DNA from: Hymenobacter jeollabukensis
GTDB lineage: Bacteria > Bacteroidota > Bacteroidia > Cytophagales > Hymenobacteraceae
NCBI RefSeq assembly: GCF_005771675.1
Contig: NZ_VAJM01000013.1
Location: forward strand, 167,337-231,336
Length of the DNA stretch: 64,000 nucleotides
Reading direction: 5' to 3'
The notes beneath the pieces are model-generated. The model was given only the letters and a program-made list of their open reading frames with translations. It was not told where the DNA came from and did no database searches. The number at the start of each line of letters is the position of its first letter. Positions within the stretch are counted from its first letter, which is position 1. This document shows, piece by piece, positions 52,352 through 58,706 of this stretch. A program made the position numbers and the translations under genes.

Positions 52352-53527
52352 ATGCCCCAAACCGAGCCGCTAACCGACTCCCCGAACGTTCACCACGAAA
52401 CCGAGCCCGACGAGCCCCGCTCCGGCGGCGGCGCCTGGCGCTGGTGGTTGCTGGCCGCGGTGGTGGTGGCGGCGCTGGCCTTCGTGAAGATCAAGTATTT
52501 CCCCTCCCAATCGGCTGAAGGCGGCAAGGGCGGCGGGGGCAAAGGCGCCGCTGGTGGCGGGGCGGGTGCCAAAGGCGGCAAAGGCGGCGGCGGACCGGTG
52601 CCCGTGCAGGTGTACGTGGTGCAGCCCACCAAGCTGACCGACGCGGTGGCCGCTACCGGCTCGGTGCTGGCCGACGAGCAGGTGACCGTGCGCAGCGAAA
52701 TCAACGGGCGCATCACCAGCCTGAACTTTAAGGAGGGCCAGCCGGTGAGCAAGGGTCAGCTGCTGCTGACCATCAACGCCGACGAAATTCAGGCCCAGCT
52801 GCAGAAGCTGCGCTACAACATCAAGCTCTACTCCGACCAGGAAAAGCGCCAGCGCACCCTGCTTGAAAAGGAGTACATCAGCGCCCAGGAGTACGAGCAG
52901 TCGAACAACGCCCTGCTCACCGCCCAGGCCGATTTGCGCCTGTTGCAGGCCCAACTGGCCAAGGCCTACGTGCGGGCGCCCTTCAGCGGGGTAGTGGGAC
53001 TGCGCACCCTCTCGGTGGGGGCCTACGTCTCGCCGAATACGCCCGTCACTACCGTGTCGCGGGTGTCGCCGGTGAAGGTGGACTTTGCCGTGCCGGGCCG
53101 CTACGCCTCGGCCGTGAAGGTGGGCGACCAGGTGCAGGTGCTCGATGAAGCTTCGAATAAGAAGTACAACGCCAAGGTCTACGCCATCAACCCGCAGATC
53201 GACCCGACTTCGCGCACCCTCTCGGTGCGGGCCATCTACCCCAACGGCAAGCTGGAGCTGCGTCCCGGCGCCTTCGTGCGGGTGAACCTGCAGATCGGGC
53301 AGGTGGAGGAGGCCATCCAGATTCCGACCGAGTCGGTGTCGCCGGAAGCCTCGGGCTACATCGTGTATAAGGTGAAGGGCGGCAAGGCCGAGCGGCAGCC
53401 GGTGAAAATTGGTATCCGCTCGGAAAGCGTGATTCAGATTACCGACGGCCTGGCCCAGGGCGACACGATTCTGCGCACCGGCATCCTGCAGGTGAAGCCC
53501 GGCGACAGGGTTCGAATTAATAATTAA
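52352..53527 (+). CDS. RND efflux periplasmic adaptor (membrane fusion protein)
   Basis: This 391-residue adaptor links the pump to TolC. It has an uncleaved N-terminal transmembrane helix (about residues 30-45), then an unusual Gly/Lys-rich linker (about 55-82, GGKGGGGKGAAGGGAGAKGG). Next come the lipoyl halves (SEINGRITSLNFKEGQPVSK, AYVRAPFSGVVGLRTLSVGA), a helical hairpin and the beta-barrel (FAVPGRYASAVKVGDQVQVL). The final residues Ile-Asn-Asn and the stop lie inside a 32-bp inverted repeat that flanks the next gene, so the original C-terminus may have been changed. Confidence 0.92.
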   Translation: MPQTEPLTDSPNVHHETEPDEPRSGGGAWRWWLLAAVVVAALAFVKIKYFPSQSAEGGKGGGGKGAAGGGAGAKGGKGGGGPVPVQVYVVQPTKLTDAVAATGSVLADEQVTVRSEINGRITSLNFKEGQPVSKGQLLLTINADEIQAQLQKLRYNIKLYSDQEKRQRTLLEKEYISAQEYEQSNNALLTAQADLRLLQAQLAKAYVRAPFSGVVGLRTLSVGAYVSPNTPVTTVSRVSPVKVDFAVPGRYASAVKVGDQVQVLDEASNKKYNAKVYAINPQIDPTSRTLSVRAIYPNGKLELRPGAFVRVNLQIGQVEEAIQIPTESVSPEASGYIVYKVKGGKAERQPVKIGIRSESVIQITDGLAQGDTILRTGILQVKPGDRVRINN

Positions 53528-53977
53528 GAATTAGTAATTAATAATTGATACTTGTGCTGCTATCGGCTTTTAAACTATGAAGCAGGAAAATATTATTCTT
53601 GAAAAGAGCTACTTGTTTTCGGTACGCATCATTCGCTTGTATCAGCACTTGATGCGGGAACGGTGTCCGCCACGGTTGGCGGACCAGATTGTGGGCAGTG
53701 GAACGGCCATTGGGTCGAATATTGAAGAAGCCGTGGGTGGACAGTCCCGGCGTGATTTTGTTTCGAAATGCAGCATATCATACAAGGAAGCACGCGAAAC
53801 CCATTATTGGCTCCGCCTGCTTCGCGACACGAACTACCTCACCGCCAAGCAGGCCGATTCGCTGCTGCAGGATTGCGAAGAGTTGTTGAAAGTATTGACG
53901 GCAATCATCCGCTCCTCCAAAGAGAGCCAGTAGCACCAAAGCCCCAATTATTAATTACTAATTCTTAATTATTAATT
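53515..53977. mobile_element. Cassette flanked by perfect 32-bp inverted repeats carrying a four-helix-bundle gene
   Basis: Arms 53515-53546 and 53946-53977 are AT-only except for two bases and are exact complements over 32 bases. They enclose the small gene at 53577-53933. The left arm overlaps the adaptor stop codon, and the right arm ends two bases before the pump ATG. The low GC and insertion between two genes of one operon point to acquisition. Confidence 0.72.
53577..53933 (+). CDS. Four-helix-bundle protein (S23/23S rRNA-intervening-sequence type, Avd-like)
   Basis: This 118-residue helical protein matches the TIGR02436 pattern: a helix with ILEKSYLFSVRIIRLYQHL, then GSGTAIGSNIEEAV, DFVSKCSISYKEARETHYW and LRLLRDTNYL. 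The family is found in rRNA intervening sequences and, as Avd, next to diversity-generating retroelements. No reverse transcriptase or variable repeat is seen here. GC content is lower than in the neighbours, and the gene sits in a 32-bp inverted-repeat frame within the RND operon. A TACTTGTG box precedes it, so it may have its own promoter. Confidence 0.9.
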   Translation: MKQENIILEKSYLFSVRIIRLYQHLMRERCPPRLADQIVGSGTAIGSNIEEAVGGQSRRDFVSKCSISYKEARETHYWLRLLRDTNYLTAKQADSLLQDCEELLKVLTAIIRSSKESQ

Positions 53978-53979
53978 AC

Positions 53980-56900
53980 ATGAGTATATCCTCCACCAGT
54001 ATCGACCGGCCCGTATTGGCCATCGTGATGAGCGTGGTCATCGTGCTCTTCGGCGTGATTGGCTACCGCTACCTCTCGGTGCGCGAGTACCCCAGCGTCG
54101 ACCCGCCCATCATCACCGTGCAGGGCTCGTACACCGGCGCCTCGGCCGACGTGATTCAGTCGCAGGTGACCGAGCCGCTGGAAGAAGGCATCAACGGCAT
54201 TGCCGGCATCAAGAACCTGACCTCGACCTCGCGCGACGGCCGGGCCAGCATCACCGTCGAGTTTGACCTGGAGGCCGACCTGGAAACGGCCGCCAACGAC
54301 GTGCGCGACAAGGTATCGAGCGCCCAGGGCCGCCTGCCGCGCGACATGGACCCGCCCACCGTCACCAAGGCCAACGCCGACTCGCAGCCCATCATGATGG
54401 TGTACCTCAGCTCCGATCGGCGCAGCCTGCTGGAGCTGACCGACTACGCCGTGAACGTGCTCAAGGAGCGCATTCAGACGATTCCGGGCGTGTCGGAGGT
54501 GCGCATCTTCGGCGAGCGGCGCTACTCCATGCGCCTCTGGCTCGACCCGGTGAAGCTCACCGCCCTGCGCGTGTCGCCGACGGAGGTGCAGCAGGCCCTG
54601 ACCCGCGAAAACGTGGAGCTGCCCTCCGGCTCGGTGCAGGGCAGCAGCACCCAGCTCACCTTGCGCACCATGGGCCGCCTCACCACCGAGGCCGACTTCA
54701 ACAACCTCATCCTGCGCCGCGACTCCACTTCGCTGATTCGCCTCTCCGACATAGGCTACGCCGAGCTCTACCCCGAAAACGACCAGACGCTGTTTCGCGT
54801 CAACGGCATTCCGCAGGTGGGCGTGGCGGTGATTCCGCAGCCGGGCTCCAACCAGATTGACATTGCCGACGCCTTCAACAAGCGCGTCAAGCAATTGAGC
54901 ACCGACCTGCCCAAGGATCTGAAAATCACCCCGGGCTTCGACAACTCGCAGTTCGTGCGCAAGTCCTTGAACGAGGTGAAGCACACCATCTTCGAGGCCT
55001 TCGTGCTCGTGGTGGTCATCATCTTCCTCTTCCTGCGCGACTGGCGCAGCACCATCATCCCGATGGTGGCCATTCCGGTGTCGCTGGTGGGTATTTTCTT
55101 CGTGATGTACCTGCTCGACTTCTCGGTGAACGTGCTCACCACCCTGGCCATCGTGCTGGCCATCGGCCTGGTGGTCGACGACGCCATCGTGGTGCTCGAA
55201 AACATCTATTCGCGCATCGAGGCCGGCGAGGAGCCCATGGAAGCGGCCCACAAGGGCTCGAATGAAATCTTCTTCGCCATCGTTTCCACCACGGTGGTGC
55301 TGGCAGCGGTGTTTCTGCCGGTGGTGTTCCTGTCGGGCATCACGGGCCGTTTGTTCCGCGAGTTTGGCATCGTGGTGGCCGGCTCGGTGCTGATTTCAGC
55401 CTTCGTGTCGTTGACCTTGACGCCGATGATGTCGTCCAGGCTGCTGCGGCGCACCGAGACGCACAACTGGTTTTACCGCAAGACCGAGCCCTTCTTCGAG
55501 GCGCTGACCAACGGCTACAAGCACAGCCTGGAGGCCTTTCTGCGCCGCCGCATCTGGGCCTGGCTGATGGTGGCGGCTACTGTGGGCGGCATTTTCTTCT
55601 TCGTGAAGGCCATTCCCTCGGAGCTGGCCCCGATTGAGGACCGCTCGCGCGTGAACATCAGCGCCACGGCCCCGGAAGGCTCCTCGTTTGAGTTCATGGA
55701 CAAGTACATGCAGCAGATGCAGCAGGCCGCCATGGACTCGACCGGCGCGGCCATGAGCAGCGTGTTTGCCGTGACCTCGCCCGGCTCCGGCTCGGGCGCC
55801 AACTCCGGCATTGCCCGCGTGCTCCTCACCGACCCGGACCAGCGCAACGTCACCCAGCAGCAGCTGGCCGACAAGCTCAGCGGCATGGTGAAGAAGTTTT
55901 CGGCCGCCCGCGCCTCGGTGTCGCAGGACCAGAGCATCGGCGGCGGGGGCGGTGGTGGCGGTGGCGGCGGCGGGCTGCCGGTGCAGTTCGTGGTGCAAAA
56001 CCAGGACTTCGAGAAGCTGCGCACCATCGTGCCCAAGTTTCTGGCCGCCGCGCAGGCCGACCCGACCTTCCAGTTCGCCGACGTGAATCTGAAGTTCAAC
56101 AAGCCCGAGCTGCGCATCATCATCGACCGCGACAAGGCGCAGACGCTGGGCGTATCGGTGCAGGATATTTCGCAGACGCTGCAGGCCGGCCTCTCGGGGC
56201 AGCGCTACGGCTACTTCCTGCGGGAGGGCAAGCAGTACCAGATCATCGGGCAGGTGGCCCGCGAGGACCGCAACCAGCCGCTGGACGTGCGCCTGCTCTC
56301 GGTGAAAAACAACCGCGGCGAGCAGGTGCAGCTCGATAACGTGGTGCGCCTGGTGGAAAGCAGCACGCCCCCGCAGCTCTACCGCTTCAACCGCTACAAC
56401 GCCGCTACCTTCTCGGCCTCCCTGGCCAAGGGCAAGACGGTGGGCGACGGTATTGCCGCCATGCAGGCCATTGCCGACAAGCTGCTCGACGACACCTACA
56501 GCACCGAGCTGGCCGGCACCTCCCGCGACTTCCAGGAAAGCTCCTCCTCGCTGGTCTTCGCCTTCGGCTTGGCGCTGCTGCTGATTTACCTTACCCTGGC
56601 GGCCCAGTTCGAGAGCTTCAAGGACCCGGCCATCATCATGGTGACGGTGCCGCTGGCCCTGGCCGGGGCCCTGCTGAGTTTGTGGTACTTCAACCAGACC
56701 CTGAACATCTTCTCGCAGATTGGCATCATCATGCTCATCGGTCTGGTGACCAAAAACGGTATCCTCATCGTGGAGTTTGCCAACCAGCGGGCCGAGCAGG
56801 GTGTGCACTACCTGGAGGCGCTGGTGGAAGCCGCCGCCACCCGCTTCCGCCCCATCCTGATGACCTCGCTCTGCGCCATCCTGGGCATCATGCCCATTGC

Positions 56901-57093
56901 CATTGCCACCGGCGCCGGCGCCCTGAGCCGCCGCGCCATGGGCATCGGCGTGGTGGGCGGCCTGGTGTTTGCCACCGGCCTCACGCTCTACATCGTGCCG
57001 GTAATGTACTCGTACTTCGCCACGGCCAAGAAAAAGCACGGCAAGGCCAAGCCGGAACCCACCGAGGACACCAGCAAGCACGCCGTGGCGTAG
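53980..57093 (+). CDS. RND efflux pump, inner-membrane permease
   Basis: This 1037-residue proton-driven transporter of the AcrB/MexF (HAE1) type has twelve helices in two halves, with large periplasmic loops. The proton-relay Asp pair is in GLVVDDAIVVLENIYSR (near residue 400). The second half has TLAAQFESFKDPAIIM and LIGLVTKNGILIVEFANQRA. A run of ten Gly residues (about 653-664) lies in the second periplasmic loop. It should work with the adaptor upstream and the TolC gene downstream to expel drugs or lipids. The start lies two bases after the right arm of the inverted repeat. Confidence 0.95.
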   Translation: MSISSTSIDRPVLAIVMSVVIVLFGVIGYRYLSVREYPSVDPPIITVQGSYTGASADVIQSQVTEPLEEGINGIAGIKNLTSTSRDGRASITVEFDLEADLETAANDVRDKVSSAQGRLPRDMDPPTVTKANADSQPIMMVYLSSDRRSLLELTDYAVNVLKERIQTIPGVSEVRIFGERRYSMRLWLDPVKLTALRVSPTEVQQALTRENVELPSGSVQGSSTQLTLRTMGRLTTEADFNNLILRRDSTSLIRLSDIGYAELYPENDQTLFRVNGIPQVGVAVIPQPGSNQIDIADAFNKRVKQLSTDLPKDLKITPGFDNSQFVRKSLNEVKHTIFEAFVLVVVIIFLFLRDWRSTIIPMVAIPVSLVGIFFVMYLLDFSVNVLTTLAIVLAIGLVVDDAIVVLENIYSRIEAGEEPMEAAHKGSNEIFFAIVSTTVVLAAVFLPVVFLSGITGRLFREFGIVVAGSVLISAFVSLTLTPMMSSRLLRRTETHNWFYRKTEPFFEALTNGYKHSLEAFLRRRIWAWLMVAATVGGIFFFVKAIPSELAPIEDRSRVNISATAPEGSSFEFMDKYMQQMQQAAMDSTGAAMSSVFAVTSPGSGSGANSGIARVLLTDPDQRNVTQQQLADKLSGMVKKFSAARASVSQDQSIGGGGGGGGGGGGLPVQFVVQNQDFEKLRTIVPKFLAAAQADPTFQFADVNLKFNKPELRIIIDRDKAQTLGVSVQDISQTLQAGLSGQRYGYFLREGKQYQIIGQVAREDRNQPLDVRLLSVKNNRGEQVQLDNVVRLVESSTPPQLYRFNRYNAATFSASLAKGKTVGDGIAAMQAIADKLLDDTYSTELAGTSRDFQESSSSLVFAFGLALLLIYLTLAAQFESFKDPAIIMVTVPLALAGALLSLWYFNQTLNIFSQIGIIMLIGLVTKNGILIVEFANQRAEQGVHYLEALVEAAATRFRPILMTSLCAILGIMPIAIATGAGALSRRAMGIGVVGGLVFATGLTLYIVPVMYSYFATAKKKHGKAKPEPTEDTSKHAVA

Positions 57094-57269: not shown

Positions 57270-58706
57270 ATGCTTTTCCCCTCGCCCATAGCCTCGTTCC
57301 GCTCTCTCCTGCCCACCGTGGCGCTGCTGCTGCCGCTGGCCGCGGCGGCCCAGCAGCCCGGCACGCCCCGAACGCCCAATCCCGGCGCCCAGCTCGACAA
57401 ACCGCAAACGGTAGCCCCGGCCCCGGCCCTGTCGCTGGAAGAGGCGGTGCGCATCGGGCTGGAAAACAACTACGGCATCCGCATTGCCCAGCGCGACGAG
57501 CAGATTGCCAGCAACAACGTCACGCGCGGCAACGCCGGGCAGCTGCCCACCGTCAACGGCAACCTCACCCGCACCTTCACGCTGAACAACGTGCGGCAGG
57601 AGTCCTCGTCGCGCCCCGAACCGAGCGTGGCGTCGGGCGCCCGCTCCAACCTGTTTAACACCAACGTGGCGCTGACCTGGACGGTGTTCGACGGCCTGGG
57701 CATGTTCATTGCCTACGACCGACTGCGCGCCCTGGAAGCCCAGCAGAAGCAGGTGACGCGCAACACCGTGGAGCAGACCGTGGCCAGCATCACCGACGCG
57801 TACTACACGGTGGTGCGCGAGTCGGGCCGCATCCGCGCCTTCGAGGAGGCGCTTAAGGTTGGGCAGGCCCGCATCGATCTGACCCAGGCCCAGGTGGACG
57901 TGGGCGTGGCTGCCAAAGTAGAACTGCTCACCGCGCAGGTCGACTTCAACGCCGACCGGGCGCTGCTCATCCAACAGCAGGAGGCGCTGGCCACGGCCAA
58001 GGTCAACCTGAACAACCTGCTGGCCCGCGCCCCCGAAACCGACCTGGCCCCTTCCGACTCCATCGTGGTGCGCCAGGACCTGCGCAAGGACGAAGTGGTG
58101 GCCGGCATCCTACAGCGCAACCCGCAGCTGCAGCAGGCCCGCCTGGGCGTGGACGTGGCCGGCTACGACCGCCGCCTGGTAACGGCCAGCCGCTTTCCGC
58201 AGGTGGGCGTGCAGGGCGGCTACGGCCTGAACCGCAACGTGAACGGCGCGGCCTTCTTCGGCAACACGCTGGTGACCAACACCGGCCGTACCCTGGGTTT
58301 CAACTACGGCGTGGTGGCCTCGGTGCCCATCTTCGACGGCTTCAACCGCCGCCGCCTGGAACAAAACGCCCGCATTGCCATCGAGCAAAGCCAGCTGCAG
58401 CTGCAGCAGACGGAGCTGGACCTCACCTCGCAGGCGCAGCAGGCTTTTCTGCAGTACCAGAACCGCCTGCAAACCCTGGCCTTGGAAGAAGATAACATCC
58501 GCCTGGCCCGCCAGAACGTGGCTATTACACTGGAGCGCTACCGCCTCGGCCTGCTCACGCCGCTGGTGTTGCGCGAAGCCCAGCGCAACCAACTCGACGC
58601 CGAAAACCGCCTGCTCGACGCCCGTTTCCTGGCCAAACAGGCCGAAGTGGTGCTGCGTCAGCTCAGCGGCACCTTGGTACAGCAGGCCCCCGTCGAGGCG
58701 AAGTAA
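57270..58706 (+). CDS. TolC family outer-membrane efflux protein
   Basis: This 478-residue outer-membrane channel of the RND system has a signal peptide (ending AAAAQ). A Pro-rich stretch is followed by two OEP repeats: ALSLEEAVRIGLENNYGIRI, AQRDEQIASNN, VTASRFPQVGVQGGYGLNRN, and the helical RIDLTQAQVDVGVAAKVELL and NIRLARQNVAITLERYRLG. It completes the tripartite pump with the two genes upstream. The ATG at 57270 is in the usual position for the signal peptide. Confidence 0.93.
   Translation: MLFPSPIASFRSLLPTVALLLPLAAAAQQPGTPRTPNPGAQLDKPQTVAPAPALSLEEAVRIGLENNYGIRIAQRDEQIASNNVTRGNAGQLPTVNGNLTRTFTLNNVRQESSSRPEPSVASGARSNLFNTNVALTWTVFDGLGMFIAYDRLRALEAQQKQVTRNTVEQTVASITDAYYTVVRESGRIRAFEEALKVGQARIDLTQAQVDVGVAAKVELLTAQVDFNADRALLIQQQEALATAKVNLNNLLARAPETDLAPSDSIVVRQDLRKDEVVAGILQRNPQLQQARLGVDVAGYDRRLVTASRFPQVGVQGGYGLNRNVNGAAFFGNTLVTNTGRTLGFNYGVVASVPIFDGFNRRRLEQNARIAIEQSQLQLQQTELDLTSQAQQAFLQYQNRLQTLALEEDNIRLARQNVAITLERYRLGLLTPLVLREAQRNQLDAENRLLDARFLAKQAEVVLRQLSGTLVQQAPVEAK

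Follow-up and report, generated by a model that had tools for sequence, protein, structure and literature searches.

An S23 gene framed by inverted arms in an RND operon

This locus raises the question of what kind of element is formed by a small gene that lies, between 2 perfectly matched inverted repeats, at the junction of an RND adaptor gene and its pump gene. The window, that is to say, the whole stretch of 64,000 nucleotides that was analyzed, is part of contig C5 of a 6.18-Mb Hymenobacter genome. On its plus strand, an RND membrane-fusion adaptor of the HlyD family (52352–53527), the final codons of which lie within the left arm, is followed by the cassette, by an RND pump of the AcrB family (ACR_tran; 53980–57093) that begins directly after the right arm, and, as operon context, by an outer membrane efflux protein (OEP; 57270–58706). 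The cassette (463 bp) is located between these adaptor and pump genes, not in an rRNA gene.

The left arm (53515–53547, plus strand) and the right arm (53945–53977, minus strand) are exact reverse complements of 33 nt that lie 397 nt apart; the exactness claimed in an earlier note on this DNA was borne out, and the length of 32 bp that it gave is corrected here to 33 nt. The arm is composed of 4 tandem AATTANN heptamers (AATTAAT, AATTAAG, AATTAGT, and AATTAAT) and a terminal AATTG. The adaptor stop codon TAA (53525–53527) lies within the left arm, and the right arm stops 2 bases upstream of the pump ATG at 53980, placements that agree with those described in that note. An 18-base piece of the arm, searched with up to 3 mismatches, gave 13 matches in the window, every one of them in or overlapping the arms, compared with a mean of 0.01 in shuffled sequences.

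The sole open reading frame (ORF) of at least 80 residues between the arms, where a Y1/RAYT transposase is absent, encodes a four-helix-bundle protein of 118 residues (53577–53933, plus strand). This protein matched PF05635 (E 1.3e-25; 90.1 bits against a curated cut-off of 33.8) and TIGR02436 (E 1.9e-29; 102.1 bits against a cut-off of 24), which upholds its assignment to the S23 (23S_rRNA_IVP) family. Its best named match is from Hymenobacter gummosus (94%). As judged from a dN/dS of 0.09 between the window copy and the copy at locus L059, the gene is under purifying selection. In the predicted RNA fold, the entire 33-bp arm was paired (z −6.5, 100 shuffles). An Rfam search of the insert returned drum on the minus strand at 22.2 bits against a threshold of 43, a match that we ascribe to chance. 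Among 27 aligned S23 proteins, most of them AATTA-armed, the stretch YKEARETHYW together with R80 (residues 69–80 of the window protein) is invariant, and this region is a candidate arm-recognition site.

The adaptor–pump junction in related genomes

Eight other Hymenobacter loci (L059–L066) have an S23 gene at the same adaptor–pump junction, and the arms remain largely complementary across the Hymenobacter orthologs. The window copy is therefore, by this comparison, an old one that has not recently arrived. Among the aligned relatives, G002 is the nearest by flank identity (84–99% per 100 bases over 52501–53500 and 96–100% over 54001–54800), yet it is S23-free at the junction, where the adaptor ends with the tail KIQKSNP and a GNAT gene is found. 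The junctions of G001, G002, G005, and G006 span 594–618 bp and include an ORF (identified as GNAT in G002, the one junction checked), and those of G003, G004, and G007 are spacers of 106–252 bp.

The earlier note had proposed that an insertion replaced the natural junction and that the gene travels as a small cassette, and had pointed to empty sites in relatives as the comparison to make. No clean empty site was found among the 7 genus relatives, because they have an ORF or an unrelated spacer at the junction. What stands of the replacement is that the junction as a whole differs from that of the relatives compared, G002 in particular; a clean interruption was not seen. Likewise, the discrete cassette with hairpin-forming arms is retained and a recent arrival is not, given the copies that L059–L066 share at this junction.

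Inverted heptamer arms around other S23 genes

The window's own genome (G000) has 3 S23 genes, each flanked by inverted arrays of a different unit, namely AATTANN, AGTTGNN (around a gene with an internal stop), and GGTGANNN. We surveyed 193 loci. Named genome records supplied 80 of them, which were the best of 219 confirmed matches; the genus supplied 23, among them the 3 of the own genome; and the order supplied 90, taken from the head of a longer list. The named-record and order sets are non-random samples, and the former may share some species with the genus and order sets. Six loci (L153, L219, L243, L246, L267, and L271) were left out because they had a profile score below 15 bits or no match; 5 of the 6 had arms scoring at least 15 in other passes. 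A locus was counted as armed when an inverted repeat with a score of at least 14 was found within 250 bp on each side of S23.

By this definition, 132 of 187 S23 loci were armed, compared with 3 of 891 shifted control positions taken from those loci, which rules out chance or an AT-rich background as the source of the arms; the other 55 loci fell below the cut-off of 14. The armed loci comprised 66 of 80 in the named-record set (65 of 80 in a first pass, compared with 1 of 431 shifted positions), 17 of 22 in the genus, and 49 of 85 in the order. Similar arms thus exist well beyond the window, where the earlier note had suggested searching for them, with a unit that differs by clade. The best period was 7 in 118 of 127 arms of at least 18 nt, 8 in 8 arms, and 9 in 1 arm; the self-identity of the arms was 0.73 at lag 7 and 0.18–0.36 at every other lag between 3 and 13. 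The 132 elements had a median length of 458 bp (10–90% range, 405–585). S23 genes at 8 of the 187 loci had a stop well inside the aligned stretch.

The arms of one element match each other better than they match those of other elements. In the AATTA class, own pairs had a median score of 22 and swapped pairs one of 10, and in 36 of 74 cases no foreign partner equaled the own one; for the non-AATTA arms, the corresponding values were 18 and 4, and 50 of 58. The arms also have a polarity: read from outside in, G exceeded C in 109 of the 132 left arms and C exceeded G in 15. AATTANN arms are present around S23 proteins that are 51–61% identical to that of the window, in records assigned by name to several phyla. 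A tree of 121 S23 proteins, which has few columns and includes near copies that inflate the contrast, required 9 changes of the AATTA label compared with 39.7 for shuffled labels, and none of 500 shuffles was as low. Other units likewise recur among related loci: AGTTGTC at L143 and L148 (one genus), AGCTAGG at L151 and L234 (two genera), and AGTGAGG-like units at L235, L237, and L241 (two families). On these sequence comparisons, S23 clades have heptamer units of their own, and the units track the protein tree.

Elements are seated at stop codons

As in the window, most elements lie at the end of a gene. In 116 of the 130 elements with enough flank, an ORF of 100 or more codons on the same strand ran into the left arm or came within 30 bp of it; under this rule, an ORF must still be open 30 bp before the arm to be counted, and stops further out score as absent. 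When one locus was kept per flank-homology cluster, a co-directional gene ended at the left arm in 72 of 84 cases, and when the limit was set to 80 codons, the upstream stop lay inside the left arm in 59 of 117. The upstream stop was located within 130 bp of S23 in 110 of 130 elements, compared with 112 of 357 ordinary genes in stretches of the own genome and G002, a comparison in which called ORF starts were used for the ordinary genes and the profile start for S23. On the right side, the same rule gave a convergent incoming gene in 58 of 126 elements, and the right arm overlapped the stop of the S23 gene itself in 58 of 132.

The upstream genes are of various kinds. Nine of 10 searched against Pfam matched, with differing families such as 2-oxoglutarate dehydrogenase E1, phosphofructokinase, glucose-6-phosphate isomerase, and Eco57I-type methylase, and 1 matched none. 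The co-directional rule is not universal, because in 2 cyanobacterial plasmids S23 lies on the strand opposite to the adjoining cas2 and cas1 genes. We also considered that the heptamers might serve as stops in three frames. Left arms closed all 3 frames in 55 of 132 elements compared with 20% of shuffled arms; however, this explanation is not general, because the figure for non-AATTA arms was 19 of 59.

Movement and inheritance

One clear near-identical pair, L082 and L088, lies in unrelated outer flanks. The 2 loci come from 2 metagenome bins, with L082 on a contig of 4.9 kb, and over 404 bp their elements are 98% identical. Outside the elements, the match on the left is limited to 34 bp, and on the right, where blastn gave none, the loci share just a short similar stretch of gene tail. 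In L088, the gene that ends at the element encodes an Eco57I-type methylase, and its tail is also seen in the short left flank of L082; both loci have a second tail, of the YGLTEE type, on the far side. Two further pairs, L129/L131 (84.8%) and L206/L212 (85.1%), had no flank match. By contrast, the Flavobacterium loci L122 and L123 share their flanks, and the element (98.2%) is more conserved than the flanks (88–89%); for this reason we regard these copies as inherited and constrained, a pattern that fits a host function too. Many copies of the S23 element look vertically inherited in such comparisons. Target-site duplications of at least 5 were found in 5 of 128 elements compared with about 5 expected, which is not beyond chance, and edge duplications of length 4 were found in 20 compared with 9 expected.

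Arrays and hairpins without an S23 gene

Arrays of the units were counted as forward and reverse matches in 8 genomes of the genus (G000–G007); one array may contribute several matches, the arms of S23 elements are counted too, and the genomes are relatives of one another. AATTA matches numbered 137 in G007, 118 in G000, 69 in G002, 42 in G003, 11 in G004, 4 in G006, 3 in G001, and 1 in G005, with a high reversed-pattern control (56 against 118 in G000); G007 and G000 have AATTA-armed S23 genes, and G003 has a partial one (CAATGAG/CAATTAAC). AGTTG matches numbered 207 in G000, 136 in G002, 83 in G003, 48 in G007, 28 in G001, 24 in G006, 23 in G004, and 13 in G005, and AGTTG-bearing S23 genes are found in G000, G002, and G003. 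GGTGA matches numbered 338 in G002, 337 in G000, 89 in G005, 59 in G006, 5 in G007, 4 in G004, 1 in G003, and 0 in G001 (reversed-pattern controls, 1 in G005 and 19 in G006), and the cognate S23 genes are found in G000, in G005, and, as a GTGAAGTT variant, in G006. Judged from these counts, arrays of a unit are mostly commonest in the genomes that have the cognate S23, except for G002, none of whose 4 S23 genes bears the GGTGA or AATTA unit despite its 338 and 69 matches. G004 had no S23 match. Because of the repeated counting, the included arms, and the relatedness of the genomes, this co-occurrence is an association and not a causal test.

The window itself has one S23-free hairpin of the GGTGANNN octamer class (76–185; C5:167412–167521), a class that also arms the S23 gene at C12:419321. 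We examined 15 hairpins without a gene, 10 of them in the own genome (7 paired AATTA hairpins and 3 on C5) and 5 in G002, and 13 of the 15 had a gene ending at both arms. The loops of the 7 paired AATTA hairpins are mutually unlike by eye, and for this reason these hairpins are not simple copies. Of 3 own hairpins compared with G002, 2 were shared and 1 was absent there; of the 5 G002 hairpins, 1 was shared with the own genome, 2 were absent from the corresponding own site, and for 2 no matching flank was found.

Several single sites were seen alongside these. An AGTTGTC hairpin at C5:48565 of the own genome, which sits between 2 gene ends and has a GC-rich hairpin in its loop, is shared with the matching site of G002, where it has 5 units instead of 6 by eye. 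A further family of dispersed hairpins, starting with CGTCATCCTGAG and devoid of period-7 structure, was found in the own genome at C5:105284, C5:123539, and C5:197409. Where the own genome has a GGTGA hairpin at C5:145109, G002 instead has a hairpin that looks similar to this family.

The S23 fold and its likeness to known systems

The structure model of the window S23 protein comprises 4 helices (pLDDT 93.4). To our knowledge, no function has been established for the S23/IVP family. By query length, the model has TM scores of 0.86–0.90 to 2rld and 0.67–0.78 to 2gsc, each of which includes 5 chains. The fold is also like that of Avd of the diversity-generating retroelements (8ub7, 8ube, and 4dwl, including the complex with the retroelement's reverse transcriptase), with TM scores of 0.72–0.82, though the Foldseek E values of 0.2–0.3 are weak. 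The resemblance between PF05635 and Avd is pointed out in a passage of PMC10053308. Unlike at Avd loci, no neighboring reverse transcriptase, template repeat, or variable repeat came to notice at the S23 genes, and in the window the operon neighbors are the adaptor, the pump, and OEP.

The relation to rRNA intervening sequences drawn in the earlier note is supported by a published example with the same parts. Sections of PMC4990558 describe a 428-nt intervening sequence in 23S rRNA that includes an S23 ORF preceded by GACAGAT heptamers, forms a 28-bp inverted stem with one mismatch and a bulge, and is excised by RNase III; it is termed selfish there, and earlier authors cited in that text suggested a mobile element. 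The described sequence is similar to the window cassette in its single S23 ORF, its length, its long inverted stem, and its tandem heptamers. The 2 differ in that the former lies in rRNA and the latter at a stop codon within an operon of protein genes, and in that the ORF of the former is in decay and its protein is, according to those sections, unlikely to be produced in vivo, whereas the window gene shows purifying selection (dN/dS 0.09). The cassette further differs from what those sections describe in that its arms are arrays of a heptamer proper to its clade and in that gene-less arrays exist in the same genome. A search for 7 motifs of 23S rRNA, which is a weak test, found them at none of the 187 S23 loci.

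REP-RAYT systems consist of a gene between inverted repeats, the class of which matches the clade of the protein, together with dispersed gene-less copies. S23 genes are like them in being bracketed by repeats, in the match between class and clade, and in the gene-less hairpins dispersed through the genome; unlike a RAYT, S23 is a four-helix bundle without known nuclease, and its repeats are heptad arrays, not REP hairpins. The Y1_Tnp genes of the genus (L302–L314) are flanked mostly by REP-like inverted repeats, such as GTAGCGCGGACTTTGTAGTCCGCG, which differ from the heptad arrays of S23.

Heptamer repeats have also been described apart from S23. Passages of PMC4679880 report TAACTGA heptamers between genes in Beggiatoaceae, Cyanobacteria, and Bacteroidetes, with S23 not involved; these repeats have stops in 3 frames, 13 sets overlap an upstream stop codon, their distribution is sporadic, and horizontal spread is suspected there. 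Like the arms of the cassette, they are intergenic tandem 7-mers that overlap stop codons; they differ in being mostly direct and in lying before start codons, and the words "23S" and "S23" are absent from that text. Passages of PMC2672173 describe rRNA inserts with transposases and inverted repeats and no heptamers, and passages of PMC5524665 place a four helix bundle gene between the genes of 2 enzymes and list it as a phage element. Among the matches listed in the open-licence literature, no paper tied S23 genes in general to heptamer arms.

A proposed mRNA element and the alternatives

We propose, giving the reading an even chance of being correct, that S23 and its inverted arrays of a clade-specific heptamer, about 0.46 kb seated at a stop codon, constitute a mobile element of the intervening-sequence kind that resides in mRNA, with S23 reading the arms. 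The cassette would then be an intervening-sequence-like element at home in mRNA, without a transposase. What the comparisons show is the anatomy of the cassette, its wide occurrence, the tie between unit and clade, the arrays that lack a gene, and the seat at stop codons; arm recognition, release by RNase III, and copying in trans are inferred from these. The arms of the cassette would pair in the transcript into the predicted 33-bp stem, which RNase III may cut, and the S23 message would thereby be separated from those of the adaptor and the pump; such cutting is suggested by the modeled fold and by analogy with the RNase III excision published for the rRNA intervening sequence. The heptad stem would be bound as RNA by S23, which probably forms a ring of five subunits. 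Further copies may arise in trans at gene ends, most likely through reverse transcription, in which S23 would act as Avd does in diversity-generating retroelements, and the gene-less hairpins would be non-autonomous copies or relics that relate to S23 as REPs do to RAYT. The hairpin-armed cassette pictured in the earlier note is kept in this proposal; the heptamers, the clade-specific units, the gene-less arrays, and the seat at stop codons had been overlooked in it. Several findings speak against the proposal: target-site duplications that do not exceed chance, the 55 of 187 loci below the arm cut-off, the many copies that look vertically inherited, the GGTGA and AATTA matches of G002, the unlike loops of the gene-less AATTA hairpins, the similar gene tails beside both L082 and L088, and the S23 protein of the rRNA intervening sequence that is probably not produced in vivo.

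The strongest rival is that S23 is an RNA-binding host protein whose targets are the heptad hairpins at gene ends, where it would influence the stability, termination, or processing of messages, with its own arms serving autoregulation. The genes that end at both arms of 13 of the 15 gene-less hairpins, the low dN/dS of 0.09, the element in Flavobacterium pairs that is more conserved than its flank, and the arms that stay largely complementary across Hymenobacter orthologs would all suit such a regulon. It accounts less well for S23 being patchy among close relatives, for several different units within one genome, for the stop well inside S23 at 8 of 187 loci, for the near-identical element in unrelated outer flanks (L082/L088), and for the same kind of element within 23S rRNA, as described in sections of PMC4990558. 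We consider this explanation possible and, on balance, unlikely. Another alternative is that the cassette moves as DNA, in the form of a single-stranded hairpin handled by host enzymes at replication forks, and that S23 is a chaperone that binds this DNA. In single-stranded DNA, too, the arms could fold, and their polarity (109 compared with 15 loci) is in keeping with this; the present data do not separate DNA from RNA, and the stop-codon rule and the rRNA insertions suit RNA at least equally, and we hold a DNA route to be improbable.

Two further explanations leave S23 no part in any movement. If the arrays were simple repeats near gene ends that grow by slippage and are tied to S23 by descent alone, units and clades would be inherited together at orthologous sites, as is observed, and heptamer repeats would occur at gene starts and ends in the absence of S23, as the TAACTGA repeats in the sections of PMC4679880 do. 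However, the arms are inverted and mutually matched, shifted positions lack them (3 of 891 reach 14), and AATTANN arms are kept at 51–61% S23 identity, a distance over which neutral spacers would be erased; we therefore regard this explanation as quite improbable. Least likely of all, in our estimate hardly to be expected, is that a RAYT/Y1 transposase encoded at another genomic site moves the arms and hairpins as REP-like repeats, with S23 as a passenger. Y1_Tnp genes are present in 6 of 8 genomes of the genus, and the layout resembles that of REP-RAYT systems, in which inverted repeats surround the gene and gene-less copies occur. Nevertheless, the inverted repeats of at least 14 found within 400 bp at 10 of 13 Y1_Tnp loci are by eye of a non-heptad type, and G005 and G006, with no Y1_Tnp match, have S23 genes and 89 and 59 GGTGA matches, respectively.

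Beyond the proposal of a mobile mRNA element, a wider generalization, which we advance tentatively and think rather doubtful, is that the whole S23/IVP family is the protein of transposase-less minimal mobile elements. In these, inverted arrays of a private heptamer would be read by a pentameric four-helix bundle and copied through RNA to stop codons by a reverse transcriptase acting in trans, with the rRNA intervening sequences, the heptamer hairpins of Bacteroidota and Cyanobacteria, and Avd as branches. If the reading proposed here is correct, S23/IVP genes and rRNA intervening sequences, the latter so far regarded as oddities of rRNA, would represent one widespread type of element that can be recognized on sight. 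Moreover, the enigmatic heptamer repeats would acquire a protein partner, and Avd of the diversity-generating retroelements would join a wider family of hairpin-reading proteins.

Distribution on chromosomes, plasmids, and phages

The S23 family was found in 103 of 148 sampled genomes of the order. Carriage by phages received no support: 2 of 50,697 phage records matched S23, a scan of viral contigs with 2 peptide patterns confirmed 0 of 56 stretches, and PHROGs gave no match to the S23 protein. By contrast, S23 relatives at 25–49% identity were found in 26 plasmid records, mostly cyanobacterial. All 10 of the plasmid loci that were fetched had inverted arms of period 7 (score 16–36), compared with 2 of 40 shifted controls that reached at least 14.

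Two of the plasmid loci, L317 and L319 from Nostoc and Anabaena, have a period-7-armed S23 gene between cas2 and cas1, on the opposite strand, and in L317 the right arm falls within the annotated 3′ end of cas1. In 3 further loci, L324, L325, and L326, S23 lies in clusters of the defence type, with the order drmD-S23-pglX in Planktothrix and DUF1156-S23-Swt1 in Chlorohelix and Gloeocapsa.
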